From a virus: 26,063 nucleotides of DNA. The notes beneath the pieces are model-generated. The model had not been told where the DNA came from, searched no databases, and worked only from the letters and a program-made list of their open reading frames with translations. Positions within the stretch are counted from its first letter, which is position 1. Every line of letters starts with the position of its first letter. Where the stretch lies: positions 1-26,063 of IMG/VR virus record IMGVR_UViG_3300036398_000164, one strand, 5' to 3'. A program made the position numbers and the translations under genes. Positions 2,254 to 25,800 of the stretch are shown here, piece after piece.

Positions 2254-2529
2254 ATGATGCCCTCGCGTGGCATGGGGGCCATCAATCCCGCCAAGATCAG
2301 ATCGATCAAAAAGCGGGATGGTGACGAGCCTGTCAAACTGTTTAAACAGGGTGGTGAAACTCGGGTGAACGAAGCCGGGAACTACACCAAACCCAGTATG
2401 CGGAAACGCCTTTTTGAGTCCATCAAGGCTCAAGAAGTACAGGGTACTAAGGCTGGTCAATGGAGTGCCCGTAAGGCTCAATTGCTGGCGAAAAAGTACA
2501 AAGAGAAAGGCGGGGGTTATCGTGGGTAA
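2254..2529 (+). CDS. DUF5872-like protein, N-terminal-half type
   Basis: A 91-residue basic protein. The second half holds YTKPSMRKRLFESIKAQEV and then a strongly conserved GQWSARKAQLLAKKYKEKGG followed by GYRG. From memory the GQWSARKxQLLxxxYxxxGGGYxG block belongs to DUF5872, in which it is followed by a W-T/E-x-x-W-x-T-K-S-G block; here that second block sits in a separate gene at 2974-3216. The N-terminus (MMPSRGMGAINPAKI) matches small proteins of uncultured aquatic phages. The function is unknown. A GTTTAAAC site lies inside the gene at 2340. It starts one base after the previous stop. Confidence 0.7.
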   Translation: MMPSRGMGAINPAKIRSIKKRDGDEPVKLFKQGGETRVNEAGNYTKPSMRKRLFESIKAQEVQGTKAGQWSARKAQLLAKKYKEKGGGYRG

Positions 2530-2977
2530 AAAAAGACTTGGAAACCTAGCCACCGTTCTTGGTGGTCTTGGTGCGGCGTATGCACTTGCCAATACGATGG
2601 GCGGCAGGGTTCGGCCTGAAGATGTCGAGAATAGCCCGGAAAAACAAAGAATGGCGGCAGACTTCGCTGCTCTTTCTCGTCGCCCTGTTCACCAGCCTTC
2701 CGCAGTTGAACTGGAGGAGAGGGCGCGTGAAGATGCCCGTAGACGTGCGGGGCTGCCCCTCGTTACAGATGCCGAGCAGGCTCAATACTTTTCGGGCATC
2801 AAAAACCTTGCGCGTACTGAAAGCGGCGTCCCCATTCGAACCTCCGATGGCTTTCTGGGCACGACATACAAAAAGGGCGGCAAGGTGTCGTCCACCAAGG
2901 TCAGCAAGGTTTCGTCTGCGTCTAAACGTGCAGATGGGATTGCTCAACGTGGCAAGACTCGCGGGAGAATCGTTTGA
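2522..2977 (+). CDS. Small protein with a hydrophobic N-terminus and the RADGIAQRGKTRGRIV tag
   Basis: I place the start at GTG 2522, inside the previous gene's end, giving 151 residues. An ATG at 2414 in the same frame would mean a 116-base overlap and an implausible Arg-rich leader. The N-terminus (LATVLGGLGAAYALANTMGG) is a Gly/Ala helix that could enter a membrane or pack in a virion. The middle is charged (ELEERAREDARRRAG). The C-terminus carries KKGGKVSSTKVSKVSSASKR and then ADGIAQRGKTRGRIV, the tag of the 1567-1824 gene with KVSS duplicated. The gene sits between the two DUF5872-like half genes. Its function is unknown. Confidence 0.6.
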   Translation: MGKKRLGNLATVLGGLGAAYALANTMGGRVRPEDVENSPEKQRMAADFAALSRRPVHQPSAVELEERAREDARRRAGLPLVTDAEQAQYFSGIKNLARTESGVPIRTSDGFLGTTYKKGGKVSSTKVSKVSSASKRADGIAQRGKTRGRIV

Positions 2978-3216
2978 AGACTTCTCAGCAATCGCTCAAA
3001 AACTGGACGGCGCAAAAGTGGCGCACCAAGTCCGGCAAACCGTCTTCCAAGACGGGGGAGCGGTATTTGCCTGAGAACGCGATCAAGAACCTGACACCGG
3101 CAGAGTACGCTGCGACCACTCGTGCGAAGCGAGCCGGTAAAAAGGCTGGAAAGCAATTTGTGCCGCAGCCCCCCAAAATCGCCAAGAAGGTGGCAGTGCA
3201 TAGGAAGGCGACATGA
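2974..3216 (+). CDS. DUF5872-like protein, C-terminal-half type
   Basis: An 80-residue basic protein that begins at TTG 2974, overlapping the previous stop (TTGA). It reads SLKNWTAQKWRTKSGKPSS, TGERYLPENAI, TPAEYAATTRAKRAGKKAGK, QFVPQPPKIAKKV. From memory these blocks (W-T-x-x-x-W-x-T-K-S-G, then G-x-RYLP, then ATxRxKRxGxxxGKQFVPQP) match the second half of DUF5872 proteins, whose first half resembles the gene at 2254-2529. The role is unknown; the charge and the company of other basic virion-operon genes suggest nucleic-acid contact. It overlaps the next gene by 4 bases. Confidence 0.65.
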   Translation: MKTSQQSLKNWTAQKWRTKSGKPSSKTGERYLPENAIKNLTPAEYAATTRAKRAGKKAGKQFVPQPPKIAKKVAVHRKAT

Positions 3217-3953
3217 CAACATCGGGAACAGCAGGATTCAACCTCGACCTCAACAACATCGTTGAAGAGGCTTTCGAGCGTTGCGGGAAGGAATTGCGTA
3301 GTGGCTACGATCTTCGTACCGCTCGGCGCAGCCTGAACCTGCTCACCGTTGAATGGGCCAACCGTGGTGTCAACCTCTGGACCATCGAGCAGGGTTCGAT
3401 TGCCCTGAACGAGAACCAAGCGATCTACGACCTGCCGGTGGACACCATCGACCTTTTGGAGCACGTCACGCGCACCGGTACGGGCCAGAACCAGCAAGAC
3501 CTTGCGATCACCCGGATCAGTGTTTCTACCTACGCAACCATCCCGAACAAGAATGCCACAGGGCGTCCGATTCAGGTGTGGGTGGATCGTCAGTCTGGAG
3601 CCACTTATCCGGCTGGTGGCAGGCCGCAAGGAACCGATCCGACCAACGGCATCGACTACCCCAAGATTTACGTCTGGCCTGCGCCGGACCAGAGCAACTA
3701 CTACACGTTCGTGTACTGGCGTCTGCGCCGCATTCAGGATGCTGGCAATGGGGGTATGACCACCCAAGACATCCCGTTCCGTTTCCTGAACTGCCTCATC
3801 GCAGGTTTGTCTTACTACCTCGCGCAGAAGATTGCGCCTGACCGTTTGCAGATGCTCAAGATGCAGTACGACGAGCAGTGGAAGTTTGCCACCGAGGAGG
3901 ACCGCGACAAGTCCGCAGTCCGTTTTGTCCCACGCCGCTACTTCACCGAGTAA
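3213..3953 (+). CDS. Head-tail connector / tail accessory-type protein
   Basis: A 246-residue protein that starts in ATGA with a good AGGAAGG upstream. The N-terminal helical part (NNIVEEAFERCGKEL, YDLRTARRSLNLLTVEWANR, then WTIEQGSIAL) and the following turn to a beta segment (NQAIYDLPVDTIDLLE) are the pattern of phage adaptor proteins that dock beneath the portal (P22 gp4 / T7 gp11 type). The C-terminal part holds PKIYVWPAPD, YYTFVYWRLRRIQD, and a helix with a Tyr/Lys-rich end. It likely forms a ring extending the portal channel. A second adaptor-type gene lies at 4764-5471. The fold assignment is by pattern, not by search. Confidence 0.65.
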   Translation: MTTSGTAGFNLDLNNIVEEAFERCGKELRSGYDLRTARRSLNLLTVEWANRGVNLWTIEQGSIALNENQAIYDLPVDTIDLLEHVTRTGTGQNQQDLAITRISVSTYATIPNKNATGRPIQVWVDRQSGATYPAGGRPQGTDPTNGIDYPKIYVWPAPDQSNYYTFVYWRLRRIQDAGNGGMTTQDIPFRFLNCLIAGLSYYLAQKIAPDRLQMLKMQYDEQWKFATEEDRDKSAVRFVPRRYFTE

Positions 3954-3956
3954 AGC

Positions 3957-4385
3957 ATGGGTAACAGATTTGCCTCCGGTAAGAATGCGATTGCAGAATG
4001 TGATCGCTGTGCTTTTCGTTACAAGTTGAAAGAGTTGAAGCGTTTGATCATCAAGACCAAGAACGTAAACATCTTGGTTTGTCCGGAGTGCTGGGAGCCT
4101 GATCAGCCGCAGTTGCAGTTGGGTATGTACCCGATTGATGACCCGCAGGCGCTTCGCAACCCGAGGCCGGACATCAGTTACCGGACCTCTGGTCTGAGTG
4201 GTTTGCAACTGGTCAATTCGACCGGTCCAAACAAGGATCAGACTGGTACGGCAGAGGGTGGCAGTAGGATTTTCCAGTGGGGGTTCGCCCCTGTTGGAGG
4301 GGCAAGAGCCAACGATGTGGGGTTGACACCTAACAACTTGGCGCTTGGAATTCAACTGGGAACAGTGACGGTTGCAACGACATAG
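3957..4385 (+). CDS. Zinc-ribbon protein of the connector region
   Basis: A 142-residue protein with two CxxC knuckles: C-D-R-C near residue 15 and C-P-E-C near residue 43, spaced as in a zinc ribbon, with FRYKLKELKRLIIKT between. WEPDQPQLQLGMYPIDDPQA and then LRNPRPD follow, a block I remember as conserved in uncultured aquatic phages. The last 80 residues are Gly/Thr/Asn-rich and probably beta or disordered. The gene lies between two connector-type genes, so a structural zinc protein at the portal vertex is plausible; a DNA-binding role is the alternative. A GCCCCT/AGGGGC hairpin at 4287-4303 lies inside the gene and lacks a U-tract. Confidence 0.7.
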   Translation: MGNRFASGKNAIAECDRCAFRYKLKELKRLIIKTKNVNILVCPECWEPDQPQLQLGMYPIDDPQALRNPRPDISYRTSGLSGLQLVNSTGPNKDQTGTAEGGSRIFQWGFAPVGGARANDVGLTPNNLALGIQLGTVTVATT

Positions 4386-4395
4386 GAGCATGAAA

Positions 4396-4566
4396 ATGGA
4401 AACCAGCAAGATGAAGAAAATTGCCAAGACTGAAGTCAAGGCGCACGAGAAGAAGATGCATGGCAAGGGCTATGCAAAGGGCGGCGTGACTTCTTCGGCG
4501 ATGAAGCAGTACGGGCGCAACGTGGCTCGCATGATGAATCAACGTTCTACTTCGCGAGGTGGCTAA
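4396..4566 (+). CDS. Small basic protein of unknown function
   Basis: A 56-residue protein. The ATG at 4396 is 7 bases from GGAG; in-frame ATGs at 4390 and 4372 are too close to, or upstream of, that site. It reads KMKKIAKTEVKAHEKKMHGK, YAKGGVTSSAMKQYGRNVAR, MMNQRSTSRGG. From memory the KKIAKxEVKxHxKxMH ... KGGVTSxxMKxYGRNxARxMNQRS form is common in uncultured aquatic phages. It is strongly basic and has no hydrophobic segment. The function is unknown. It overlaps the next start by one base (TAATG). Confidence 0.65.
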   Translation: METSKMKKIAKTEVKAHEKKMHGKGYAKGGVTSSAMKQYGRNVARMMNQRSTSRGG

Positions 4567-4760
4567 TGAACACAGACAAGTTCGAATACTTCCCGGCTGA
4601 CATCAAGGAGCCGTGCGAGAAGTACGTCCAGCCCAAGCCATACACACAGCCAACGCCCAACTCTGGCTATCCGAATGCCGTCCCGAACACGCAGACTCAG
4701 CGTACTCGCGGCACGAAGAACACCACCCGTGGGTTTGGTCACACCAAGAAGATGGGGTAA
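4566..4760 (+). CDS. Small Pro/Thr/Asn-rich protein of unknown function
   Basis: A 64-residue protein starting at TAATG with the GAGGTGG stretch just upstream. The N-terminal half is acidic and aromatic (FEYFPADIKEPCEKYVQPK), the middle is Pro/Thr/Gln-rich, and the end is basic and Gly-rich (GTKNTTRGFGHTKKMG). A TRGFG ending like this is common in small virion-operon proteins of aquatic phages, as I remember them. It probably lacks a stable fold on its own. It sits between the preceding basic protein and the adaptor gene, as if co-expressed with them. No function can be assigned. Confidence 0.6.
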   Translation: MNTDKFEYFPADIKEPCEKYVQPKPYTQPTPNSGYPNAVPNTQTQRTRGTKNTTRGFGHTKKMG

Positions 4761-4763
4761 GCG

Positions 4764-5471
4764 GTGAATTACACGGAACTGAAAGCCAGAATCAAGGCGT
4801 ACTGCGAGAACGACTTCCCACAGGCAGTCGGCGCGGGCGGCTTGACTTCAGACGAGCAGATCAACACGTTCATCCAGCAGGCTGAACAGCGCATCTACAA
4901 CTCGGTTCAGTTCCCCTCGCTGCGTAAGAACGTCACCGGTTTAACGACCAACGGCAACAAGTACCTTTCGGCCCCGGGCGATTTCTTGGCGGTCTATTCG
5001 ATTGCCGTCATTGACAACGTGACTGGCGAGTACCTGTACCTGCTCAACAAGGATGTGAACTTCATCCGTGAATCGTTTCCGTCCCCGGCAGATCAGGGTA
5101 AACCCTATTACTACGCTCTCTTTGGTCCGACCACGACAAACAACACGCCGCCCGTTATCACCAACGAGTTGACCTTCCTGCTGGGTCCAACGCCTGATGC
5201 GGTGTACAGCGTCGAGTTGCACTACTACTACTACCCCGAGTCGATCACTGTGGCCTCCAGCGGTCAAACATGGCTAGGCGACAACATGGACTCTGTGCTG
5301 CTTTATGGCGCAATGATGGAGGCAGCGTCCTTCATGAAGTCCGAGAAGGATGTGGTCGAGATGTACATGGGCCGCTACAACGAAGCCCTGATGCTCGCCA
5401 AGCGTCTGGGTGATGGCATGGAGCGTCAGGATGCCTACCGTTCTGGTCAGTTCAGGATGGAGGTGAAGTGA
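4764..5471 (+). CDS. Phage adaptor protein (gp11-like, DUF6682-type)
   Basis: A 235-residue protein with a GTG start at 4764, 3 bases after the previous stop. It has the layout of a phage adaptor: NYTELKARIKAYCEND, INTFIQQAEQRIYNSVQFPS, then beta elements (NKYLSAPGDFLAVYSIAVI, YLYLLNKDVNFIRESFPSP, PYYYALFG), then VELHYYYYPE and a C-terminal helical part (LLYGAMMEAASFMKSEKDVV). From memory this is the adaptor family often numbered DUF6682, related in position to T7 gp11; it would form the ring between portal and tail nozzle or hub. Together with the gene at 3213-3953 it gives two stacked connector candidates. Confidence 0.75.
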   Translation: MNYTELKARIKAYCENDFPQAVGAGGLTSDEQINTFIQQAEQRIYNSVQFPSLRKNVTGLTTNGNKYLSAPGDFLAVYSIAVIDNVTGEYLYLLNKDVNFIRESFPSPADQGKPYYYALFGPTTTNNTPPVITNELTFLLGPTPDAVYSVELHYYYYPESITVASSGQTWLGDNMDSVLLYGAMMEAASFMKSEKDVVEMYMGRYNEALMLAKRLGDGMERQDAYRSGQFRMEVK

Positions 5472-5887
5472 TGGCTTTCACTGGCAACTACACCTGCAAT
5501 ACGTTTAAACTGGGACTGCCGAGCGGTGAATTTAACTTCGCCACCGGCACGACTGACGTGTTCAAGATTGCCCTGTACACCAACGCCGCATCGCTGGATG
5601 AAAACACTGCGGCATACACCACGGATGGTGAGGTGTCTGCGACTGGATACACGGCTGGCGGGGAGGTTTTAACCCCCACTGTGGCGGTTTCCGATGGCAC
5701 ATCGTTCATTGATTTTGGCGACGTGTTTTGGAATGGGGCATTCACTGCCCGTGGGGCGCTGATCTACAAAAACGGTGGAGCAGCAATTTGTGTATTGGAT
5801 TTTGGTGCAGATAGGACATCGACATCTGTTTTTCAGGTGCAATTTCCTGCCAACACCAACAGTTCCGCTTTAATTCGGATTTCATAA
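5471..5887 (+). CDS. Virion or tail structural protein, beta-rich
   Basis: A 138-residue protein. The ATG at 5471 forms TGATG with the previous stop and follows AGGTG; the GTG three bases earlier is less likely. It starts FTGNYTCNTFKLGLPSGEF and continues as alternating beta strands (DVFKIALYTNAASL, TSFIDFGDVFWNG, ARGALIYKNGG, AAICVLDFGADRTS, FQVQFP). The sequence is Thr/Gly/Ala-rich, as in phage tail or fibre proteins, and resembles from memory a common small virion protein of uncultured aquatic phages. A role in the tail or as a fibre base is inferred from the neighbours. A GTTTAAAC site lies at 5503-5510 (codons for T-F-K). Confidence 0.65.
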   Translation: MAFTGNYTCNTFKLGLPSGEFNFATGTTDVFKIALYTNAASLDENTAAYTTDGEVSATGYTAGGEVLTPTVAVSDGTSFIDFGDVFWNGAFTARGALIYKNGGAAICVLDFGADRTSTSVFQVQFPANTNSSALIRIS

Positions 5888-5897
5888 GGAGCATGAG

Positions 5898-6482
5898 ATG
5901 ATCAACAGCAAAGCAAAATCCACCGACAAGATCAGCGCCGAATTGGCGATTGGTGGTGGCGCTCAAGAAGGCGTTCGCGGTGGCGGCGTCTTCTTTTTTG
6001 AGTGCTATGACAAAGACGGCAACCTCAAGTGGAAAGAGCAGTCGAAGAACCTTGTCGTGAACGTCGGTCTGAAAGACATGAACGACAAGTATTTCACTGG
6101 CTCTACCTATACCGCCGCTTGGTATCTGGGTCTGATTACTGGTCCGGGTTCTGGTACGACAATTTCTGCTGGTGACACGATGTTGTCTCACGCTGGCTGG
6201 AATGAAGATGTGGCGTACAGCCAAGCAACTCGTCCTGCTTGCACCTTTGGCGCTGCAACGACTGCCGATCCTTCGGTGATCAGCAACTCGGCTTCCGTGG
6301 CTGTGTTCAGCATCAATGGCACAACGACAATTGCTGGCGCATTCTTGACCAGCAACAACACTAAGAGCGGCACAACCGGCATCTTGTTTTCGGCCTCTGA
6401 TTTCCAGTCGCCGGGTGATCGCGCTGTTGTGAGCGGTGACACACTGAACGTCACCTATCAATTCAGCCTCGACGCAGTTTAA
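5898..6482 (+). CDS. Virion or tail structural protein
   Basis: A 194-residue protein with AAGGAG 6 bases before its ATG. The first 30 residues are charged and Gly-rich. The segment GGVFFFECYDKDGNLKWKEQ and KNLVVNVGLKDMNDKYF is followed by a beta/Thr/Ser/Gly-rich body (AAWYLGLITGPGSGTTISAG, FSINGTTTIAGAFLTSNN, GILFSASDFQSPG) ending in LNVTYQFSLDAV. The pattern of a hydrated beta protein with few cysteines is that of a phage minor tail or fibre protein, and it resembles a recurring protein of aquatic phages. The exact place in the particle is not readable. Confidence 0.65.
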   Translation: MINSKAKSTDKISAELAIGGGAQEGVRGGGVFFFECYDKDGNLKWKEQSKNLVVNVGLKDMNDKYFTGSTYTAAWYLGLITGPGSGTTISAGDTMLSHAGWNEDVAYSQATRPACTFGAATTADPSVISNSASVAVFSINGTTTIAGAFLTSNNTKSGTTGILFSASDFQSPGDRAVVSGDTLNVTYQFSLDAV

Positions 6483-6493
6483 GGAGCACAACA

Positions 6494-6673
6494 ATGGCTA
6501 CTAAATTCACCAAAGGTCAAACCCTCAAACTGAATGCGACCGTTCCTCAAGGACCGGTTATTGCGCTTCGGATGGACGAGGACGGCACATTCTTCTACCT
6601 GATTGAGTGGACTGACGCCTCTGGCGTTAAGCATCAACGCTGGTTTGAAGAGTCTCAACTGACTGCCGCATAA
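6494..6673 (+). CDS. Small SH3-like (YodC/DUF2158-type) protein
   Basis: A 59-residue gene. The ATG at 6494 has an ideal AAGGAG 7 bases upstream and the frame runs to TAA at 6671-6673. It reads MATKFTKGQTLKLNATVPQG, VIALRMDEDGTFFYLIEWTD, HQRWFEESQLTAA. The F-x-K-G-Q-x-V/L-x-L opening, the PxG-V turn, a beta strand ending in I-E-W, and a closing W-F-E-x-x-x-L resemble, with modest confidence, the compact DUF2158/YodC SH3-like fold. It sits between two virion genes, so a small structural or chaperone part is possible. The 8-base gap to the next gene suggests coupled translation. Confidence 0.7.
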   Translation: MATKFTKGQTLKLNATVPQGPVIALRMDEDGTFFYLIEWTDASGVKHQRWFEESQLTAA

Positions 6674-6681
6674 GGTCGGTA

Positions 6682-8064
6682 GTGTTTGGCCTGCTGTCCT
6701 ATTCGGCTGCTCCATACTCATCGCTTGCTGGCGCTGTATATGCGGTAACAGTCGCAGAAACTGCCCGCGCTTCAGACACCCTGAGTGCGCTGGGTCAGTT
6801 CGCCTCTTCAATCAGTGAATCGGCGAGGGCAACAGACAGCATTACCGCTCGCGTTGTTTACACAACCACCGTCACCGAAAGCGCAAGAGCCTCTGACTCC
6901 ATAAGCGCAGCGGTCACCTACCGGGTGACAGTCATTGAACTGGTAACCGCCGCAGACTCTATTTCGGCAGCAGTAACCTTTGGCGGCAACATCGCAGAAA
7001 GCGCCAGAGCGTCCGATACAGTCAGCGCATCCGGCATTTTTGTCTCTCAGGCATTTGAGAGTGCCACCGCATCCGAGACTGCTGTTGCCCGGGTCATTTT
7101 TGTCTCAACGGTCAATGAGTCTGCAAGCGCCTCAGACGCCGTATCAGCCAACTTCATTGTCAATTCTGCTGTTTCTGAGCAGGCGAGCGCATCAGATTCA
7201 ATTTCTGCCTCCGCTCTGTTTTCCAGCAATGTGCAAGAAGCCGCCACGGGTTCCGAGCAGGCATCTGCATCGGTGATCTTTGGTAGCAATGTCAATGAGT
7301 CTGCATCTGCATCTGAAACCGTTTCTGCCGCTGCAACGTTCGCAACCTCTGTTGAAGAGTCTTCCAGTGCAGCCGATCAGGTTTCTGCAATTGCTGAATT
7401 CAACGCCACGGCATCAGAGACCGCAAATGCAGCCGATTCCATTTCTGCTGGCGCTGTGTTTGTCACAGCCGTTTCTGAGCAATCAAACGCCTCTGATGAA
7501 ATTTCTGGATCGGTGATCTTTGGAAGCAGTGTCACTGAGTTTGCCGAAGCGAGCGATTCGATTGCTGCTCAAGTGGAATTTGGCGTCAGCGTTGATGAGT
7601 CGGCTACGGTGTCTGAACTTGTATCGGCAATCGGTTCTTTTGTTGCCACTGCGGCAGAGTCCGCAACCGCAGAGGATCAGACCTTTGCGTCTTTTGCAAT
7701 CAATGCTTCTGTTGAGGAACTGGCATCTGCTTTAGACGAGCAATTTGCTGGCGTCATCTTTATCGCAACCTTGGCAGAAGACGCAACAGCAGCCGATGCG
7801 GTCAGTAGCCTTGTTGACTTTGGCGCTTTGGTGACCGAGCAGTCGTCTGCCGAAGACTCGTCAACCACAAAGCAGATATTCAATGCGTCGGTTTTTGAAC
7901 TTGCCAACGCATCTGACAGCCTTTTGGCTCGTCTGCTGTGGGAAATCATCAACGACAGTCAGTCTGGAACATGGAGTGTGATCAACGCGCAAAGCAGCGG
8001 TACATGGAGCGTTATCAATAACGCTGACACAACAACTTGGAATGTCATAAAGACATCGAACTGA
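6682..8064 (+). CDS. Fibre-like protein of twenty 20-residue repeats
   Basis: A 460-residue protein from a GTG start at 6682. Residues 1-21 are a hydrophobic-small-residue leader (LLSYSAAPYSSLAGAVY). Residues 22-421 are exactly twenty tandem 20-residue units with no insertion or deletion, of pattern x-x-V-x-E-S-A-x-A-S-D-x-x-S-A-x-x-x-F-x. Unit position 5 is Glu in all twenty, position 11 is Asp or Glu in all twenty (16 Asp, 4 Glu), and position 19 is aromatic in 18. Residues 420-460 switch to an 11-residue period anchored by Trp 420, 431, 442 and 453 (SGTWSVIN). Invariant length and a phased acidic ladder suggest a beta-solenoid or triple-beta shaft of a tail fibre; this is inference. Position in the virion region agrees. 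Confidence 0.75.
   Translation: MFGLLSYSAAPYSSLAGAVYAVTVAETARASDTLSALGQFASSISESARATDSITARVVYTTTVTESARASDSISAAVTYRVTVIELVTAADSISAAVTFGGNIAESARASDTVSASGIFVSQAFESATASETAVARVIFVSTVNESASASDAVSANFIVNSAVSEQASASDSISASALFSSNVQEAATGSEQASASVIFGSNVNESASASETVSAAATFATSVEESSSAADQVSAIAEFNATASETANAADSISAGAVFVTAVSEQSNASDEISGSVIFGSSVTEFAEASDSIAAQVEFGVSVDESATVSELVSAIGSFVATAAESATAEDQTFASFAINASVEELASALDEQFAGVIFIATLAEDATAADAVSSLVDFGALVTEQSSAEDSSTTKQIFNASVFELANASDSLLARLLWEIINDSQSGTWSVINAQSSGTWSVINNADTTTWNVIKTSN
6745..7944 (+). repeat. Twenty in-frame 60-base protein repeats
   Basis: Twenty consecutive 60-base units, each encoding 20 residues, lie in one frame of the 6682-8064 gene. They are diverged at the DNA level: I see no long identical blocks, but the encoded Glu (unit position 5) is invariant and position 11 is always Asp or Glu. 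This is a coding repeat kept by selection on the protein, not a CRISPR array or simple satellite. Confidence 0.85.
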
Positions 8065-8065
8065 T

Positions 8066-8536: not shown

Positions 8537-8559
8537 TCATTTGACAAGAGGAAAAGAAT

Positions 8560-9321: not shown

Positions 9322-9331
9322 GGAGAGAAGA

Positions 9332-10492: not shown

Positions 10493-10494
10493 TC

Positions 10495-11548: not shown

Positions 11549-11551
11549 ACC

Positions 11552-12226: not shown

Positions 12227-12241
12227 TCAAAGGAGTAAATC

Positions 12242-12732: not shown

Positions 12733-12734
12733 TC

Positions 12735-13148: not shown

Positions 13149-13150
13149 AG

Positions 13151-13420: not shown

Positions 13421-13435
13421 CCGACAGGAGGACGC

Positions 13436-13936: not shown

Positions 13937-13945
13937 GGAGTACCC

Positions 13946-14401
13946 ATGCCATTCCAACTTTCTCAGCGCAGCCTCGACAAACTGGTGGGCGTTCGCCCTG
14001 AACTGGTCGAGGTGGTTAAGCGCGCTATCGAGATCACCACCGTTGATTTCGGTGTCACTGAGGGATTGCGGACCAAGGAGCGCCAGATTGAACTCTTTGA
14101 GAAGGGCGCATCTCAGATCAAAGACGGCGGCACTCACGTCGATGGCAGAGCGGTGGATTTGATGGCCTACATCGGGGATCGTGGCAGTTGGGAACTCAAC
14201 CTGTACGACAACATCGCTGATGCGGTGAAGCAGGCAGCAATCGAGAAGAACGTGGCGATCCGCTGGGGTGCTGCGTGGAACGTGCCTGACATTCGCCTCT
14301 GGCGCGGCACGATGGAAGAGGCCATGAACTTTTACATTGACGAGCGCCGCAAGCAGAACCGGCGTCCTTTCATCGATGGGCCGCATTTTGAGATGGTTTA
14401 A
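13946..14401 (+). CDS. Endolysin, M15 family L-Ala-D-Glu-type peptidase
   Basis: A 151-residue protein with AAGGAG upstream. It has the M15 (VanY-like, M15C) zinc peptidase signs: the substrate-side GLRTKERQIELFEKGAS, then THVDGRAVDL with H64 and D71 as the first two metal ligands, and a final GPHFEMV with H147 as third ligand. The length of about 150 residues is usual for single-domain phage M15 endolysins, and there is no signal peptide, so release through a holin is expected. It cleaves peptidoglycan stem peptides. It follows the 3TM holin directly, and its stop codon lies inside a GTTTAAAC palindrome at 14396-14403. Confidence 0.88.
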   Translation: MPFQLSQRSLDKLVGVRPELVEVVKRAIEITTVDFGVTEGLRTKERQIELFEKGASQIKDGGTHVDGRAVDLMAYIGDRGSWELNLYDNIADAVKQAAIEKNVAIRWGAAWNVPDIRLWRGTMEEAMNFYIDERRKQNRRPFIDGPHFEMV

Positions 14402-14403
14402 AC

Positions 14404-16284
14404 ATGGCATTCACGAAGGTCAAGATCAAACCGGGGGTCAATCGAGACACGACTAACTACGCCAACGAGGGTGGTTACTACGAGTCCGAGAAGGTCCGCT
14501 TCCTCTCCGGCTACCCGCAGAAATTGGGTGGCTGGGAGAGTGACCCCACGGTTTCGATCAAGGGTATTTGCCGCAGCCTGTTCAACTACATCACCAGCAA
14601 CAGCGACAACATCCTCTGGATCGGCACGACCAACCACCTCTATGCGGAGGTAGGCGGTAACCTGCAAGACTTGACCCCCGCTCGGGCAACGTTTACATCG
14701 CCAGCCAGCAATAACTGCTTTGACACGACGAACGGCTCAAGGATCGTCAACGTCAACATTGTGGGCCACGGCGTGACTGCTACCGGGCAATTTGTGACCT
14801 TTTCCGGTGTAGTTGGGTCCGGCTCTCCTGCGACGATTGGCGGCATCCCGGAGGCAGAGTTCAACGCCGAGTTTCAGGTCTACGCGATTGTTGATGCCAA
14901 CAATTTTCAGATTGAGACGACCACCGCTGCCACCAGCACCACCAGCAATCAAGGTGGTACTGGCATTACGGCAGTCTTCCCCATCATCCCGGGCAACGAT
15001 ATTGACTTGTACGGCTATGGCTGGAGTGCCGGTCCTTGGAGCCGTCTGGGCTGGGGAACGGGTACGGTGACACCTCTGGTGATCGGTCAACGAGATTGGT
15101 GGTACGACAATTTCGACAACGATTCGGTGATGAACATCCGTAACGGTACGCCCTACTACTGGGCGTATGAGGCCACCATCAGCGTGAGAGCCATACCCAT
15201 GTCCACGGCTGCGACGAATGCCGGGTTTGTGGGTGCTGACGTTCCCGCCGAGGTGATGCAGTTGATGGTGTCTCAGAACGACCGCCATCTTTGCGCTTTT
15301 GGTGCAACGCCGTTTGGCGGTGGCAACTTTGATCCCATGCTAATTCGCTGGGCAACGCAAGGACAGCCACTCAACTGGACGCCCACAGCCACCAACTCGG
15401 CTGGCTTTTATCGGGTCTCTCGTGGCTCACGGATTGTTCGGGCAATCCCGACCCGTCAGGAAACCCTGATCTTGACAGACTCCAGTATGTACTCGATGCA
15501 GTTCACGGGTACGACCGACGTATTTGCTTTCCAAGAGTTGGCTGACAACATCTCGATTGCCAGCCCTCGATCCATCGTTGTGGCAAACAACGTGGCTTAC
15601 TGGATGGGTCAGGACAAGTTCTATATGTACTCCGGTCGCGTTGAGACGCTGCCCTGTACTCTCAGGAACGAGGTCTTCAACAACATCAACTTTGAGCAGC
15701 AGGCCCAGATCATCTGCGGGACCAATGAACGCTGGAACGAGGTGTGGTGGATTTACCCGACAGGCAACAACACATCGCCGGACTCCTACGTCATATACAA
15801 CTACGCCGAGCAGATTTGGTACTACGGGACCATTGAGCGCACGGCATGGCTGGATTCGCCTCTGCGTCTTTACCCGCAAGCAATCAACGGGCAGTACCTG
15901 TACAACCATGAAGTAGGGATTGATGCAGACGGTCTGCCGATGACCTCCTACATCGTCACGTCCGACTTTGACATCGTCGATGGGGATGAATTCCTGTTGA
16001 TCAAGCGGATGATTCCTGACATCAACTTTGCCGGATCGACGGCTGCAACTCCTCGGGTGTTGCTGACAGTCAAGCCGAGAAACTTCCCCGGCTCCAACTA
16101 CAACACCACCAACCAGCCGCTGGTGGAGTTGTCATCGACTGTGCCGGTTGAGCAGTACACGGAGCAGATTTTCATTCGCGCTCGCGCTCGTCAGATGGGT
16201 CTGAAGATTTACTCCGACGAGTTGGGTGTGATGTGGCAAATGGGTCTTCCGCGACTCGACGGACGGAAAGATGGCAAGCGATGA
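14404..16284 (+). CDS. P22 gp10-like tail hub / packaged-DNA stabilisation protein
   Basis: A 626-residue protein whose ATG follows GTTTAAAC with no spacer and no strong Shine-Dalgarno. The start KIKPGVNRDTTNYANEGGYY, SEKVRFLSGYPQKLGGWE is one I know from large podovirus hub proteins of the P22 gp10 type; the rest is repeated beta blades with Trp/Tyr-rich strands (LLFNYI-like, NILWIGTTNHLYAEV, LILTDSSMYSMQFTG, YVIYNYAEQIWYYG). Residues about 100-200 are a Thr/Ser/Gly-rich insert (VNIVGHGVTATGQFVTFSG, PEAEFNAEFQVYAIVDANNF), like an added beta domain common in such phages. It is longer than P22 gp10 (472 residues). It likely forms the hub that closes the portal channel. Confidence 0.7.
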   Translation: MAFTKVKIKPGVNRDTTNYANEGGYYESEKVRFLSGYPQKLGGWESDPTVSIKGICRSLFNYITSNSDNILWIGTTNHLYAEVGGNLQDLTPARATFTSPASNNCFDTTNGSRIVNVNIVGHGVTATGQFVTFSGVVGSGSPATIGGIPEAEFNAEFQVYAIVDANNFQIETTTAATSTTSNQGGTGITAVFPIIPGNDIDLYGYGWSAGPWSRLGWGTGTVTPLVIGQRDWWYDNFDNDSVMNIRNGTPYYWAYEATISVRAIPMSTAATNAGFVGADVPAEVMQLMVSQNDRHLCAFGATPFGGGNFDPMLIRWATQGQPLNWTPTATNSAGFYRVSRGSRIVRAIPTRQETLILTDSSMYSMQFTGTTDVFAFQELADNISIASPRSIVVANNVAYWMGQDKFYMYSGRVETLPCTLRNEVFNNINFEQQAQIICGTNERWNEVWWIYPTGNNTSPDSYVIYNYAEQIWYYGTIERTAWLDSPLRLYPQAINGQYLYNHEVGIDADGLPMTSYIVTSDFDIVDGDEFLLIKRMIPDINFAGSTAATPRVLLTVKPRNFPGSNYNTTNQPLVELSSTVPVEQYTEQIFIRARARQMGLKIYSDELGVMWQMGLPRLDGRKDGKR

Positions 16285-17654: not shown

Positions 17655-17660
17655 GAAACA

Positions 17661-17688
17661 TTGACGTTTAAACACGAACAAGGATAAT
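17661..17688 (+). promoter_or_regulatory. Candidate sigma70-type promoter overlapping a GTTTAAAC palindrome
   Basis: In the 40-base gap before the gene at 17695, one of the longest gaps in the window, TTGACG (17661-17666) stands 16 bases from GATAAT (17683-17688), close to the -35 and -10 consensus. GTTTAAAC (17666-17673) overlaps the -35 end, and TTGAC...GTCAA forms a 5-base inverted repeat. The expected start of transcription falls on or next to the ATG at 17695, and the ribosome binding site AAGGA overlaps the -10, so promoter and Shine-Dalgarno readings compete here. Confidence 0.35.
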
Positions 17689-17694
17689 GTCAAC

Positions 17695-19581
17695 ATGAAC
17701 CAAACCGCTCAATATCTAGCCAGTAAAGGTCGGAATGGCGACACGATGCTGGTGCATATGTCCCCGCAAGAAGTCGGTGGACTCCAGACGCTTGCCCGGA
17801 ACAATGGCACGACGCTGACCGTCAACCCGCAAACCGGTCTGCCCGAAGCCTTCAACCTTGGGCGTCTGCTGCCTATGGTGGCTGGCGCTGGCCTGACCAT
17901 GCTGTCTGGCGGCACACTGTCCCCCTTGACCATTGGCTTGATGACGGGCGGTCTTGGTGCTGTGGCAACCGGTAGCCTCAAAGAAGGTCTCATGATGGGC
18001 CTAGGGGCCGCTGGTGGCGCTGGACTGGCTGGTTCGATGGCAAACCTTGCTGCTCCTGCCGCAACGTCTGCCGCTCCCGCTGCGGGTAGCGGATTGACTG
18101 TTCCGACCGCATTGCCTCCCCCGACTCCAGTTGCTGCGCCTTTGAACTTCTCCCAACCGTTGGCTCCGCAGGTTGCTGCCAACACAGCCTTCCCGCCGAC
18201 TGATCTTTCTCTGACAAGCGGCATGAACCTACCGCCAGCCGGTGGCGGCTTGCAGACCCTCAAGGCTCCAGTATCCTTGGCAGAAGCCCCGCCACCTCTG
18301 GACTTTAGTCAGGGTGCGCCTTCGTTGTCTTCGCAAATTGCAACGCGCACTGCCCCGCTTGAGTACACCGCATCACTTCCGGCACAGCCTCCAGCAGGAT
18401 CATTGATTGGTCCCCCCAAAGTTTCGCTGGCAGCACCACTTGAGCCGCCTCCGCTGGACTTTTCTCAGCCCCTTGGGCCGCAAATGGCTGGGCGTTATCC
18501 TTCTGAACTGAATAAGTCTCTGATTGGCGGTACACCTACGCCACCGCCTCCGTCTTATGGAAGCCGTGTGTTGGAAGGCGGCAAGAAAGCATTTGGGTCA
18601 ATGGAGTCGGCTGGTGACTTCTTGAGCAACAACAAGATGAATCTGGCAATGAGCGCCGCACCTGCGCTACTTGCTGATCCGGAGTACGCTGGCCCTCCAG
18701 AATCGAACTCCATGATGCGCCCGTACTCGCTGGACATCGACAACACTTCTGATATTGCAGCCTCTCCGGTGGGTCGGGAAGACGAGCGTCTACGCTATCG
18801 CTACACGGCAGGTACGCCGTACAAGGCGGCGCAGGGCGGCATCATCGCTTTTGCCGAGGGCGGCAACACGACAGATGGTCAAGAAATCGGCAGCAATCCA
18901 CTGTCTCCTGAAGCCGCTCGTGTGTATCAGTCGATTGCTCGCATCCAAGGTCAGGCAGGCTTGCCGCAGATTGATCTTTCAACCATGCCAGTTGTGCAGC
19001 AAAGCCCTGTAGCCCGTTTAAACACTCAACCTGCTGCGCCAATGTATCGACCGGTGGACTACAGAGTTCCGATGCCGCAGTACATGGACTCGGAGACGTA
19101 TCGTCAAATAGATCAAAAGCGCAAAGAAGGGCCGTTTGGCGATTTCTTTGACTCTTTCTCCAACGTTTCCACTGGTTTTGCTGGAGGCGGTCAGGCAAAG
19201 TATCGCGATGTCCGCAAGAAGATTGATCGCATGGCTGATCCGTATGGCTTCACAGGCTACCAGCGCGGTGAAGGAATGTACGAGTCGGCACAAAGAAACT
19301 TTGCTGGTGGCGGCGGTCTGGGCAACGTTCCTCGCTTCCTTTCTGGCGGCGGTGATGGCATGAGTGACTCCATTCCTGCGACGATCAATGACCGTCAACC
19401 GGCTCGTCTGGCAGACGGTGAGTTTGTGATCCCTGCGGACGTGGTCAGCCACCTCGGCAACGGCTCCAGCAAGGCTGGAGCGAAGCAACTGTATGCCATG
19501 ATGGATCGTGTGCGTACCAAGCGCACTGGCAAGAAGAAACAAGCGCCTGCGGTTAATTCGAAGAAGATGATGCCAGCATGA
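17695..19581 (+). CDS. Ejection-type internal virion protein with 52-residue repeats
   Basis: A 628-residue protein. Residues 18-50 hold LVHMSPQEVGGLQTLARNNG and NPQTGLPEAFNLG, an N-terminus I recognise from large proteins of aquatic phages. Next is a Gly-rich hydrophobic stretch (LLPMVAGAGLTMLSGG, LGAVATG, about residues 58-120) that could cross or perturb membranes. A Pro/Ala-rich part carries PLxFSQ at F152, F204 and F256, exactly 52 residues apart. At about 380-390 is GGIIAFAEGG. The C-terminus holds GDGMSDSIPATINDRQPARL, ADGEFVIPADVVSHLGNG and AKQLYAMMDRVR, an ending common in such proteins. It probably is packed in the head or tail and ejected; this is inferred from composition and neighbours. 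Confidence 0.65.
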   Translation: MNQTAQYLASKGRNGDTMLVHMSPQEVGGLQTLARNNGTTLTVNPQTGLPEAFNLGRLLPMVAGAGLTMLSGGTLSPLTIGLMTGGLGAVATGSLKEGLMMGLGAAGGAGLAGSMANLAAPAATSAAPAAGSGLTVPTALPPPTPVAAPLNFSQPLAPQVAANTAFPPTDLSLTSGMNLPPAGGGLQTLKAPVSLAEAPPPLDFSQGAPSLSSQIATRTAPLEYTASLPAQPPAGSLIGPPKVSLAAPLEPPPLDFSQPLGPQMAGRYPSELNKSLIGGTPTPPPPSYGSRVLEGGKKAFGSMESAGDFLSNNKMNLAMSAAPALLADPEYAGPPESNSMMRPYSLDIDNTSDIAASPVGREDERLRYRYTAGTPYKAAQGGIIAFAEGGNTTDGQEIGSNPLSPEAARVYQSIARIQGQAGLPQIDLSTMPVVQQSPVARLNTQPAAPMYRPVDYRVPMPQYMDSETYRQIDQKRKEGPFGDFFDSFSNVSTGFAGGGQAKYRDVRKKIDRMADPYGFTGYQRGEGMYESAQRNFAGGGGLGNVPRFLSGGGDGMSDSIPATINDRQPARLADGEFVIPADVVSHLGNGSSKAGAKQLYAMMDRVRTKRTGKKKQAPAVNSKKMMPA

Positions 19582-20027: not shown

Positions 20028-21001
20028 TTATTCCGAACAAATTTAATGGCTACTCGGACGATGGTCGCAGGCTGTACTTTTTTGATGGCGGCGGTGATGG
20101 TGGCGGCAGCGCCCCTCCTGCCAACACGACTCAAGTCACGATCCCCGAGTACGCTGCTCCCTACATGGAGCGCCTGCTCGGTAAAGCCGAGGCTCTAACG
20201 GGAAGCCCTTACCAGACATACCGAGGAGAGCGGATTGCTGGCATCAGCGATATGCAGCGCGAGGCTCGTGGCGATGTGGCTGGCATGGAAGGCCCGGGGC
20301 AATACGATGTTGGCACTGGCATGGCTGGCGCTGGCGGTATTGCTGCGCTGGGTGCTGGTGAGCGTTACCTTGGCGCGGTCACCGACCCGAACGTCACCAA
20401 GGCATTCATGTCGCCCTATATGCAGAACGTGGTGGACCTGCAAAAAGCGTCTGCCATTCGTGATGCACAGAAGGCTCAACTCGGCGCAGACCTTGGTGCT
20501 GCTCGTCAAGGTACATACGGTGGCGCTCGTCAATTGCTGGCAACCACTGAGCGTGAACGCGCTCTTGGCAGTCAGATGGCTGACATCCAAGCCCGTGGCA
20601 CTCAGGCTGCTTACGAGCAAGCCTTGAAGAATATGCAGTTCGGCACTGACGCAACTCTGCGAGGCGCTGCAACGGGCATTCAAGGCGCTCAGACGCTGGG
20701 TCAGTTGGGGACGGCGCAGCAGCAATCTGCCCTTGACTTGGCTCGGGCGCAGGAAACATTTGGTGGTTTGGAACAGGGCGAGAAGCAACGTGCGCTGGAC
20801 TTGGCGTATCAGGACTTCCTTGCCCAGCAGCAGTACCCGTATAAACAACTTGGCTTCATGTCCGACCTGCTGCGCGGTAGCGCAAACTTGGCACAAACGG
20901 GCGCTAAGGCTGTATACGAGGCTCCTCCAAGCCAGTTGTCACAGATCGTGGGTCCGGGCCTCTTGGGTCTGGGCATCTACCGCGAATTCATGAAGAGTTA
21001 A
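20024..21001 (+). CDS. Ejection-type internal virion protein, Ala/Gln-rich helical
   Basis: A 325-residue protein that starts in ATGA with AAGGAGC upstream. After a short Gly-rich entry (FFDGGGDGGGSAPPANTTQV) the body is helical and Ala/Gly/Gln-rich: PYMERLLGKAEALTGSPYQT, FMSPYMQNVVDLQKASAIRD, GTYGGARQLLATTERERALG, QMADIQARGTQAAYEQALKN. The MSPYMQxVVDxQ ... G-GGxRQ pattern is one I recall from internal or ejection proteins of T7-like and aquatic podoviruses. The C-terminus (PSQLSQIVGPGLLGLGIYRE) is mildly hydrophobic and may meet a membrane. It likely is co-ejected with the neighbours. Confidence 0.65.
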   Translation: MIIPNKFNGYSDDGRRLYFFDGGGDGGGSAPPANTTQVTIPEYAAPYMERLLGKAEALTGSPYQTYRGERIAGISDMQREARGDVAGMEGPGQYDVGTGMAGAGGIAALGAGERYLGAVTDPNVTKAFMSPYMQNVVDLQKASAIRDAQKAQLGADLGAARQGTYGGARQLLATTERERALGSQMADIQARGTQAAYEQALKNMQFGTDATLRGAATGIQGAQTLGQLGTAQQQSALDLARAQETFGGLEQGEKQRALDLAYQDFLAQQQYPYKQLGFMSDLLRGSANLAQTGAKAVYEAPPSQLSQIVGPGLLGLGIYREFMKS

Positions 21002-21010
21002 GGGGCGGGT

Positions 21011-22831
21011 ATGAATCTGATCGAAATCTCTGAGCAACTGAAGGATGTTCCTGATCAGTTGCTGATGAAGGAGGTGCAAGCCCCGAGCGGCGCGTACCCG
21101 GCCTACCTCGTGGTCACCGAGATGTCTCGGCGCAAGCGTATGCGCGATCAGGCGCAGAAAGAGGCTCCGACCACCACGGTTGCACAAGACCTGATGCAAC
21201 CCAGCCGTGAGCAGATGATGGCTGCGATGGCGGCTACGCAGCAGCGGATGGGTCAGCAAACCCCTCCTCCTTCTCAACTAGTATCAGGTCAAGGTCCACA
21301 AGGTCCACAGGCTCAAATGATGAGCCAGCCTGCTCCTCGTTTAAACGCTGGAATTATGGCTGCACCCCAAGCCGCCAACGCTCTTTCTGCCCAAGACGTG
21401 ATGGCTGCGGAAGAGCCGCGCCGCATGGCTGGTGGCGGCATGGTTGCGTTTGCAGAGGGTGGCGACATCAAATACGATGATCGAGGTGTTCCTCGTTTTC
21501 AGTCTGGGGCGTTTCTTTTCCCAGAGGGTTCTTGGCTTGGTCAACTGCAACGAGGCACATTTTTTAGGGACGCCGCTCCCGGTTCTTTGCTGGGCCAGTT
21601 CCAAGAGTCTTATGCAAACGACCCAGCGATTTTGAGAGAACAGGAAGAGCGCCGCCGCCGAGAAGAAAATGCAGCGGAATTGCGAAGAATTCAAAATCGC
21701 GCAGCCAGCGAACAAGCCGCTTTTGCTCGGGCGCAAAGCGCATCTGCTGCGGCTCAAAGCGCAACCCCTCCGGCGCAAAACGCACCTGCTCCCGGCACAA
21801 GCGGCCCTCGTCCGGCTGGGCAGTCAAATGTTGGCGTCAGATTGCCTGATGTCAGCAAACTCGGCCCTGCACCCGGTGCTCTGACTTTGACCCCTGTCAC
21901 CATCCCGTATGACACAGAGGCTAAAGATTTGTCCACTCGCTTTGCCGCTATGCGAGAGCCAACCGCTCAAGAAATTGCGACTGCTCGCGCAGCAGAAGAA
22001 ACTCGGTATGGCGAGAAAGTCCCTTTTCGTTACGGCTTTCTTGAGAAGGACATTGCCAAGCGCGAAAGGGACATTGAGGGCCGCAGAGGGTCCAACATCA
22101 ATGAGGCCTTGATCCAGACAGGTCTTGGGATTATGGGTTCCAAATCTCCGCGCTTCTTGCAGGCGGCGGGAGAGGCTGGCACTGCTGGTTTAAACGCTTA
22201 TCGTCAGGGTCTGAAAGACATCCGCGAGGGTGAGCGCGACATCTTGCAATCGAAGACTGCGTTTGCTAACGCTCAGACTCTGTACGACCAAGGCAAATTC
22301 AGCGCAGGCGAGAAGGCAGAAGAGAAAGCCTACAAACAATATGAGCGCGGCCTGAATCGGATTGGCACAGAAAGCGCCATTCTTGCTCGCAATCAAACCG
22401 CTTCATTGCAAGCCCAGCAACTGCGTCAGCAGGGTGAACTTGGGGCGTACACGGCTGGCCTCAATGCATACAAGACACAGATGGACGCGCTGAAACTGCC
22501 TTATGAACTCGGCGTTCTCAGGGAGCAGGCTGGATACTACAGCCGCGCTCCTGCCGCAGGTCAAGGCAGAGGACCAGACACTACGCCTAGTCCGGCAGAA
22601 ATTGCCGCCGTGAAAAAACTCGCCTTTGACTCAGTCAATGCTGATATTTTCGCGAAAAAGTCAACATTGAAACCAATGAGTCCTGAATTCAACGCAGAGG
22701 TTGAGCGTCGTATGCAGCAGATTTTTAGAGACACTGTTGGCAAAAATTACAATCCAATATCACCGGCAGCACCGGGAACTTCTGGACCTCCAGTTAGGAA
22801 CTCACAACAAGCACCTCTTGGAGGGCCGTAA
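21011..22831 (+). CDS. Large ejection-type internal virion protein with an AFAEGG motif
   Basis: A 606-residue protein with AAGGGGCGGG upstream. The N-terminus has NLIEISEQLKDVPDQLLMKE, TEMSRRKRMRDQ and a long Gln/Pro/Ala-rich linker with two PQGPQ-like runs. GGGMVAFAEGG lies at residues 141-151, as in the gene at 17695. A charged coil (REQEERRRREENAAELRRIQ) follows, then an Ala/Ser-rich linker, and a helical half with KRERDIEGRRGSNINEALIQ, TGLGIMGSKSPRFLQAAGEA and YRQGLKDIREGERDILQSKT. Composition and context fit a virion-internal or injected protein. Two GTTTAAAC sites (21339, 22188) lie inside, read as R-L-N and G-L-N. It overlaps the next gene by one base. Confidence 0.65.
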   Translation: MNLIEISEQLKDVPDQLLMKEVQAPSGAYPAYLVVTEMSRRKRMRDQAQKEAPTTTVAQDLMQPSREQMMAAMAATQQRMGQQTPPPSQLVSGQGPQGPQAQMMSQPAPRLNAGIMAAPQAANALSAQDVMAAEEPRRMAGGGMVAFAEGGDIKYDDRGVPRFQSGAFLFPEGSWLGQLQRGTFFRDAAPGSLLGQFQESYANDPAILREQEERRRREENAAELRRIQNRAASEQAAFARAQSASAAAQSATPPAQNAPAPGTSGPRPAGQSNVGVRLPDVSKLGPAPGALTLTPVTIPYDTEAKDLSTRFAAMREPTAQEIATARAAEETRYGEKVPFRYGFLEKDIAKRERDIEGRRGSNINEALIQTGLGIMGSKSPRFLQAAGEAGTAGLNAYRQGLKDIREGERDILQSKTAFANAQTLYDQGKFSAGEKAEEKAYKQYERGLNRIGTESAILARNQTASLQAQQLRQQGELGAYTAGLNAYKTQMDALKLPYELGVLREQAGYYSRAPAAGQGRGPDTTPSPAEIAAVKKLAFDSVNADIFAKKSTLKPMSPEFNAEVERRMQQIFRDTVGKNYNPISPAAPGTSGPPVRNSQQAPLGGP

Positions 22832-25800
22832 TGCCTTACCAGATTAAGTTGCCAGATGGCAGTCTGGTGTGGATTGCGGACAATGTGCCGCAAAGCAAGG
22901 CAATGGAGTTGGCGAAAACGTCTTACCCGGACGCCTTCCCTGCCCCTCCCGGTGTCGGCAGTCAATTGTTGTCCGCGCCCAAGGAGTTCATCAAGGGCGC
23001 TGCATCTGGTCTGGTTCAAGCCGCAGGTGGTCTTGGTGCTTTGCCTTATGCCGGTGCTCGGTACTTCATGCCGGAACTCAAGCCGTTTGAACAAACCGGC
23101 TTTGGTCAGGCAATCACAGGCGCAGAACGCTATCTAGCCCCCAGCGACGAGGGTGTGGTCACCCAACTGGCTGGCGGTCTGGGTTCGTTCGCCTCCATCC
23201 TTGGTCCGCAGGTTGCCCTGCGAGGGCTGGGTGCTGCTGGTCGCTTTGCTGGTATGGCTCCTCGTGCAGCAATGCCTGTGGCTGTGGCTCAGACGGCAGG
23301 TCTGGGCGTAGAAGAGGCGCGTCAGCGCGTTGAGATTGCTCGCGGGGACAACATAACGGTTACCCCGGGTCAAGAGTTGGCTTCTCTGTCGGTTGGTGTT
23401 CCGCTTGGCCTGACCGAACTTCTGCCTGTTGAAAAACTCTTCCGTGGTCTGGACAAGACTTTGTCTGGCGCAGTCAAACTCGACATCGCCAACTACATCA
23501 AGCGCGGTCTGGCTCAAGGCGGTATCGAAGGCGCACAGGAAGCCGCATCCGGTCTCCTGCAAGACCTGTCTGCCAAGGGCATCTACAACCCCAATCTTGA
23601 GGTGGGTCAGTCCATTCTGGGCGATGCTGCTCTGGGTGGTGGTGTGGGCTTCATTGCTCAGACCGGTCTGGACTTCCTGCTCCGCAAAGACATTGGTCGT
23701 GCCTATCAATCCAAACTGGCGCAGGATCGTCAGACACAACTCAACACCGAACTGGAGCGGATGCAGCAGCAGAAAGACGCCCAGATCGCAGACACCAAAC
23801 AGAAACTGGGTGTACCCGATTCGAACGTCTTGGCTCTACCTGCCCCGGCTCCGAAGGTCGAAAAGCAAGAAGCCAGAGACCCATTGATGAATCCGGTGGG
23901 TTTCTTCAATGCAGGAGAACTTACCCCTGCGTACCTGAAGGCAGTCAACGACATCCGCAAGACTGAAGGCAAGCGTGGTATCTCCCAGTTCTCGATTGAG
24001 GACTTGGCTGATGCTGGCGCACCTCAAGCAGAACTGGATCGTCTCCTGACCTACAAGACAGGCTACGACGGTCAGACCAAGTTGTCCTCTGAGGATGTAC
24101 TGAACCTTGCCGCAGAGAAGAACGTTGATACATCCACCGTTGGCTTCATGGACTTTTTGCGCCGTGCGACAGGCTCCGAAGACCTGACGACCATGAGCCA
24201 GCCGCAACTGTTCTCTGCGTTTAAAGCACTGGACGGCTTGCAGGCCAGCGAGCAAACCCAGATTCTGCCTCCCGGCACGAACGCCACCCGCTTCAGCGAT
24301 GACCAGTACAACAAGTCCCTGAAGAACCTGACCACCATGTTCCCGAAGAACAACATGATGTCTCGGGACAAGGCAGTGCAGGAGATCAAGGACTACAGCG
24401 GTCTGGAAAGCGACCGCGATGCAGAGTCCCTGCTTCAAACAGCCATTCGCAATGGCGACCTGACTACGACCAACCGCACGGTCTACGAACTGGGCATCCC
24501 GGGTGACCAGACCTCTCCTGCGGTACGCCGTTACACCACCCGTGAGGCGGCAGAACGCAATGCAGCCCGTCTGGGTCTTGAGGTGCGTGAGCGTACCCAT
24601 CAGGACGTGGCTCTCCCCGGGACCGCAGCCCAACTACCGGGCGGGCCGGACATCCGTCAGGGAACGTTTAAACAAGGTGTTGCGCCTGCGGGCTACGAAA
24701 TCCGCAGCCCCGACGCCGTCCTGCAAGTTGCCCCGACTCAGGAAGAGGCAGACGCCAAGGCTGATCGCCTCCAGCAACTCCGTGCCCAGAAAGCCAACGG
24801 CTACCTTGGTGACATCGCCAAGAAAGAAGCCGAGATGGCGAAGAGCCAGCGCAAGTTGGAGAGCATGGAGGCTGACGGCAAATCCAACACTCTTGAGTAC
24901 AAGAAGATTGCGGCGGGTGTGGCGGCTCAGAACAAGCGCCTCCTCAACGAGATCAACGCACTCAAGCAGAAGGTCCAGAACTACACCGCCCCGCTGGAAA
25001 TCGCCCCCAAGGGCGAGAAGCCGGTTACCCGTGATGGCTTTACCCTGTTTGAACAGAACCAGCCTGTAGCCACCTTCCCGTCCCAACAAGCCGCAGAAGA
25101 GGCGGCATTGCTGCGTCTGCCTGACGAGACTTTGGAGACCATCGTCAAATTGGCTCCGTCCCAGAAAGGTCTCATGCCCAAGCGTCTGGGCAAGATGGCA
25201 GAGGCCGAACTACGCCGCCGCCGTGGCGAGCAACCGGCTGGCTTTGGCATTCAGTTCACGGGTGACCGTGCCGCAGCCGAAGCCCGTCTGGCAGAGGCGG
25301 GTGTCTTCACGCCCGAGTTCCAGAAGGCAGCAGACGAACTGGCGAAGAAACTCCGTCCGCTCATGGAGCGCCTCGGCCTTGGCGATCTGCGTTTAAACAT
25401 CCTGAAGGCGATCAAGACCGCAGGCGGTCAGTCCGCAGATGGCTACTACGCCCAGCGTCTGATCGCGATTGCGATGGACGCAGAGAATCCGATCCGTACC
25501 CTGCGTCATGAAGGCATCCATGCCCTGAAAGAACTGGGCGCATTTACACCCCAGCAATGGAAGGTGCTTGAGGACAAAGCCAAGTCCGAGTGGATGGGCA
25601 AGTACAACATTGCCAGCCGCTACGCCAACATGAATATGTCCCAGCAGGACATGATCGAGGAAGCGATTGCGGATGCCTTCTCTGACTTCGATCAGACCAA
25701 GGCTCCTCCGGGCATGATCGGTGCGCTGTTCAACAAGATCAAGCAGTTCTTCACCGCATTCGGCAATGGTCTGCGTGGCCTTGGCTTCCAGACTGCCGAG

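Follow-up and report, generated by a model that had tools for sequence, protein, structure and literature searches.

A dispersed palindrome, GTTTAAAC, in the genomes of uncultured phages and a candidate ribbon-helix-helix reader

Dispersed DNA sites in phages and cells

Judged by analogy of form, the closest described counterpart of the phage sequence analyzed here is HIP1, the highly iterated palindrome of cyanobacterial chromosomes. HIP1 is an 8-bp palindrome in genome-wide excess, mostly intragenic and present about once per 1–2 kb; it is linked to methyltransferases, and its overrepresentation is possibly a by-product of biased repair (PMC4390886). The octamer GTTTAAAC shares the excess, the density and the mostly intragenic location, but whereas HIP1 belongs to cyanobacterial chromosomes and orphan methyltransferases, GTTTAAAC is tied to a module of phage genes, and the phages have no DNA adenine methylase in common. 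The stoperators of Cluster A mycobacteriophages (L5 and its relatives) are likewise tens of short sites, spread genome-wide, for one phage-encoded DNA-binding protein, and their consensus differs among related phages. They are, however, asymmetric, mostly oriented with transcription and linked to lysogeny, whereas here we find a palindrome with Y/R flanks on both sides, a candidate reader of the ribbon-helix-helix (RHH) type, and a gene module whose integrase-like gene is missing from most of the phages. Chi-like sites are asymmetric, strand-oriented octamers, as are the known Chi sites themselves, and differ in this from GTTTAAAC, the core of which is a perfect 8-bp palindrome.

The RHH fold is found in nucleoid proteins that organize DNA through many chromosomal sites, among them MatP, whose matS sites are confined to the terminus region, and CdbA. 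For CdbA, more than 500 sites have been described (PMC7156744). Both are cellular proteins, and CdbA has a direct repeat of high GC content as its consensus, in contrast to the AT-centered palindromes on viral genomes reported here. RHH repressors of the Arc/CopG/MetJ type recognize short palindromic boxes, of which the MetJ box is an example, as the candidate described below putatively does, but they serve one or a few operators, compared with 16–44 sites per genome and a conserved FPSGKSF region C-terminal to the RHH domain in the present case.

Excess of GTTTAAAC in a 26,063-bp phage record and its relatives

The window analyzed is the whole 26,063-bp virus record. It covers the late half of a podovirus-like genome, the one with the structural genes, and encodes an endolysin and a DNA-ejection-like protein besides the virion structural proteins, together with the beginning of one very large internal protein. 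GTTTAAAC occurs in it as nine exact copies, against 0.23 expected from dinucleotide shuffles, none of which reached nine, and 0.39 expected under an order-3 Markov model (Poisson P ∼4e-10), a conservative figure because the model was trained on sequence including GTTTAAAC itself. These values agree with the initial annotation, which had counted nine copies where ∼0.4 would arise by chance and had placed seven of them in the last 12 kb; seven indeed lie after 14 kb. The runner-up 8-bp palindromes reach three copies and none exceeds that number, while nine of the 11 TTTAAA hexamers in the window carry the full G...C flanks. Megablast of the second half of the window against isolated phages returned no match.

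Seven of the nine copies lie inside genes, four as CGT/GGT TTA AAC and three as TTT AAA C, so that the earlier reading of two frames, with the Leu codon TTA in four of seven coding copies, was correct. TTA is also as rare elsewhere as had been supposed, with 19 of the 627 Leu codons in the window (3%), and four of those 19 fall within GTTTAAAC. The first site (2340..2347; none of the nine is assigned a strand) is read as CTG TTT AAA CAG in ORF 2254-2529 and is retained in all four alignable clade relatives (context identity 76–95%), and the second (5503..5510), read as ACG TTT AAA CTG in ORF 5468-5887, is retained in five of five. The copy at 14396..14403 overlaps the TAA stop of the endolysin ORF 13946-14401, directly before the ATG at 14404, and the related records G002 and G004 have copies at an almost equivalent position; that at 17666..17673 lies in the intergenic gap 5′ of ORF 17695-19581, in a context matched in G001, G002, G004, G005, and G006. 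The remaining five are all intragenic. CGT TTA AAC accounts for the sites at 19016..19023 (ORF 17695-19581), 21339..21346 (ORF 21011-22831; retained in G001) and 25391..25398 (ORF 22831-26061; retained in G002 and G004), GGT TTA AAC for that at 22188..22195 (ORF 21011-22831; retained in G002 and G004), and ACG TTT AAA CAA for that at 24666..24673 (ORF 22831-26061), which is retained in G002 and replaced by CTTCAAGG in G004. Across all alignable comparisons between the window and its relatives, the site was retained in 17 of 18.

Searching with the structural protein encoded at 14404-16281 recovered 80 related loci, the closest of which (at least 80% identity) have the GTTTAAAC excess, whereas relatives at 54–65% do not. 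Single records contain 25 copies in 56.4 kb (G004), 19 in 45.9 kb (G003), 16 in 46.7 kb (G005), and 13 in 29.6 kb (G002), and 13 near-complete or partial relatives hold 16–44 copies per genome where 0.6–3.5 are expected, with GTTTAAAC nearly always the top-ranked 8-mer. Markov counts in these longer records, a check proposed in the initial annotation, thus revealed a genome-wide excess: when all 8-mers were ranked by z-score, GTTTAAAC came first in each clade genome tested, and under a slightly different score the overlapping CGTTTAAA just exceeded it in G002. Because the flanking bases are mostly Y and R on both sides (in ∼80% of the sites within the clade and in 74% of the 473 distinct contexts), we take the unit to be YGTTTAAACR. 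A search with the G004 primase-helicase yielded 80 loci at 64–100% identity, and GTTTAAAC is the top palindrome in nearly all of them (26 copies in 21.7 kb in the densest); it also stands at or near the top of the 8-mers in 78 RHH-linked loci. The GC content of the motif-positive phages ranges from 0.38 to 0.57. Site spacing follows no strong regularity, two of 12 genomes (G036 and G042) being more even than random (p 0.01–0.02). Across a large set of uncultured phages, most of them aquatic, GTTTAAAC is written into the genes at nearly every place where the protein sequence permits it. In the open-access literature, GTTTAAAC was not found as a motif, only in cloning or primer uses or unrelated matter.

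Two other repeats were seen along the way. Eleven copies of CCTGCAGG are clustered within ∼10 kb of one record (L023/G014, 13.3–23.7 kb), a local cluster that was rejected as a second motif, and the 58-kb record of L391 has eight copies of GAATATTC in 21 kb against 0.3 expected, possibly another phage palindrome.

Synonymous codon choice points to strong selection on the DNA. In codon-anchored alignments of five genes of the early module described below, restricted to unchanged amino acids and with ∼60% nucleotide identity, the site was kept in 92% of comparisons and random 8-mers in 13%. At primase codons 298-300, 95 of the 96 rows that retain Leu use TTA, and the Phe at the RusA site is TTT in 127 of 129. 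Saturation is comparably pronounced: across 14 genomes, GTTTAAAC is the spelling used for 156 of the 264 [RSGC]-L-N strings and for 155 of the 218 x-F-K-[PHQLR] strings, compared with 2 of 68 and 4 of 35 of the corresponding strings in four negative genomes, and overall ∼60–70% of the codon strings able to spell GTTTAAAC do so. Usage of permissive strings is similar in the module (0.68) and elsewhere (0.61; for G044 and G055 the limits of the early span were overly generous), and the lower site density of the late genes thus stems mostly from fewer permissive strings. Permissive strings also make up a larger share of FK and LN dipeptides than they do of FR, YK, LD, and IN. Among one-mismatch neighbors, GTGTAAAC is enriched 5-fold and ATTTAAAC 2.6-fold and centre mutants are depleted, which is the pattern expected for recognition by a protein. 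Saturation and synonymous conservation together lend strong support to the initial proposal that selection acts on the DNA rather than the protein and that the site is a used one. Since the gene calls behind these figures are ad hoc and the genomes related, the figures convey the strength of the effect and not a number of independent events.

The early gene module and a candidate RHH reader

All 12 motif-positive genomes that reach the early region encode SprT, RusA, an exonuclease, an SSB-like protein, the protein p11162 and an RHH protein (whole-contig comparison), the SprT, AAA, and VWA genes being the most divergent of this module. None of nine motif-negative siblings has the module, yet their capsids are 84–91% identical to that of G004, and in their structural genes they resemble the window about as closely as the positive genomes do. 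The excess thus tracks the replication/recombination module, not the structural genes. Because structural genes do not distinguish positive from negative genomes, a packaging signal, one of the roles first offered for the palindrome, is disfavored. The window's own structural proteins are 88–90% identical to those of G004 and G002, and since the window ends short of the module, the gene for a reader protein would lie outside it, as judged from these relatives. In one early module (L085:722-4593), the SprT-like protein, a CbbQ/NorQ-like AAA ATPase and two VWA/CobT-like proteins form a chelatase-like set.

The RHH protein is the candidate reader. Its profile matches 13 of 13 positive and none of five negative genomes, and in profile searches it matches SvtR (E 2e-4), VapB26, and CopG. 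The predicted structure (pLDDT 88; helices at residues 16-28 and 33-45) aligns over residues 2-59 with NikR, CopG, Arc, PutA, and CdbA at Z 5.7–6.5, the match to the first four (Z ∼6) covering residues 5-50. By profile and predicted structure, the protein thus belongs to the ribbon-helix-helix superfamily, with a beta-alpha-alpha RHH domain. Relatives of the protein were not found in the isolated-phage collection or in GTDB genomes.

Presence and divergence of the RHH gene match the presence and change of the motif. The contigs L341-L360 encode the exonuclease, RusA, primase, SSB, and p11162 without RHH and contain no GTTTAAAC, and the isolated Planktothrix phage Pag-Yong1 also has none, a weaker null given its GC content of 0.69. 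Where the RHH protein is distant (L449-L454; records G061 and G062), a different dispersed palindrome appears, TGACNNGTCA, with 18 copies in 57 kb and 17 in 49 kb versus ∼1 at other spacers, and with 0–1 copies in nine comparison records lacking that RHH type. The preferred site also varies with RHH lineage, being ATTTAAAY in G046, ATTTAAAC in G054, GTGTAAAC in G059, and VTTTAAAC in G040. Pag-Yong1 (L339/L340, OL906435.1) has a dispersed repeat of its own around CAGGCTGAACCGGAT, often near gene boundaries and possibly representing promoters or operators; its CGGTTCAG occurs 34 times against 4.6 expected.

We consider it probable that GTTTAAAC, as YGTTTAAACR, is the genome-wide binding site of this small phage-encoded protein. 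The RHH gene would be carried within the module of the same phages, outside the window, and a dimer of its product would recognize the 10-bp palindrome by means of the beta-ribbon. Selection for one site per 1–2 kb across all phage DNA would then account for sites filling most permissive codon strings. Both binding and its effect are inferred; the bound protein would likely serve to coat, organize or mark the genome on behalf of the phage's replication/recombination machinery, or alternatively to control transcription. Among the roles initially proposed, a phage regulator or DNA-organizing protein fits best.

Several genomes complicate this picture. L124 (record G057) and L119 have RHH proteins of 85% identity, but L124 contains just three GTTTAAAC in 17.5 kb; its module is 75–95% identical to that of L119 at the DNA level, and the homologous L119 sites are broken by point mutations, some of them synonymous (two such changes in the RusA site). 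The sites must therefore be dispensable or open to counter-selection. Conversely, G067 has no detectable RHH gene, yet seven GTTTAAAC in 59 kb (z 5.6), five of them in the structural half and perhaps imported with the structural genes. The distant RHH relatives L390, L400, and G069 have no clear motif (the L390 and L400 contigs being short), and G045 has a weak motif or none. As all genomes are related, none of these counts represents independent events.

Alternative explanations and implications

The RHH gene is only one of several linked module genes, and RusA, the exonuclease and p11162 also accompany GTTTAAAC in every complete positive genome. One of these (the RusA-like resolvase, the PD-(D/E)XK exonuclease or p11162) might instead read the palindrome, which could then serve in recombination or nuclease control in the manner of a two-sided Chi. 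We regard this as unlikely: contigs with homologues of RusA (∼60% identical) and of the exonuclease and p11162 (∼40–45%) but no RHH are devoid of the motif, as is Pag-Yong1, and Chi is asymmetric while GTTTAAAC is palindromic.

Also unlikely, in our view, is that the phages mirror their hosts, whose genomes would be rich in GTTTAAAC or methylated at it, as the HIP1-type palindromes would suggest by precedent (PMC4390886). The motif tracks one phage module rather than tail or structural genes, spans the wide GC range given above, and shifts where the RHH protein is divergent, all of which makes host mirroring less likely; the enriched one-mismatch neighbors, in turn, fit degenerate recognition. 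With respect to methylation, the group shares no phage DNA adenine methylase, which also disfavors the phage-encoded methylation mark among the first-offered roles: in a screen for phage-encoded adenine and N4 methylases, PF01555 was detected in three of 13 positive genomes and PF02086 in none. An N6/N4 DNA methylase gene adjoins the RHH gene in three of the 13 (G035:40204-41004, G037:22271-23239, and G043:19788-20609). By analogy with HIP1, a repair by-product model is possible, here mainly via a host enzyme. A search for hosts with the structural protein and the RHH protein in 84,980 genomes found no relative.

Stoperator-like transcription control, in which a repressor bound at sites throughout the genome blocks elongation during lysogeny as in Cluster A mycobacteriophages, appears improbable. 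It draws support from the dispersed phage repressor sites already known, whose consensus drifts alongside the repressor (PMC6550527), and from the erased sites of L124, which resemble an escape variant. Against it, GTTTAAAC is palindromic and has no orientation with transcription, near-saturation inside genes exceeds the needs of an operator set, and the module's integrase-like gene is found in only two positive genomes, G004 and G036, in a screen limited to homologues of the G004 gene.

That the sites serve recognition or priming by the Toprim primase-helicase, with whose gene the motif was first noticed to co-segregate, is highly improbable and largely refuted, since G055 and G056 lack that gene and still have 36 and 28 sites, and the motif is missing from contigs that encode a 44–47% identical primase but not RHH. 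In G055, what we take from reading the sequences to be a DnaB-like helicase and a DUF1376-like initiator replace the primase-helicase. An operator of the HutC/GntR type (GT-N-TA-N-AC), suggested by the degenerate neighbors, was dropped because no GntR-type gene was present in the early genes scanned and the RHH gene tracks the motif.

Returning to recognition by the RHH protein, dense coverage of the whole genome would itself be the selected trait, as for a nucleoid-type or self-marking protein working with the neighboring recombination genes. More tentatively, and with less confidence than we place in binding as such, the protein and its palindrome may form a self-labeling system that spreads over every acquired gene until permissive codons are nearly exhausted, allowing phage DNA to be recognized as self or compacted by the replication/recombination apparatus, with each RHH lineage having a palindrome of its own (GTTTAAAC, ATTTAAAY, GTGTAAAC or TGACNNGTCA).

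If the RHH reading is right, widespread uncultured phages carry a genome-wide protein-binding code that dictates synonymous codons and enriches permissive amino-acid strings. The site variants, RHH variants and site-erased lineage form a natural series for studying the coevolution of DNA-binding specificity and a whole genome, and these phages would offer a test of viral DNA organization or marking without base modification.
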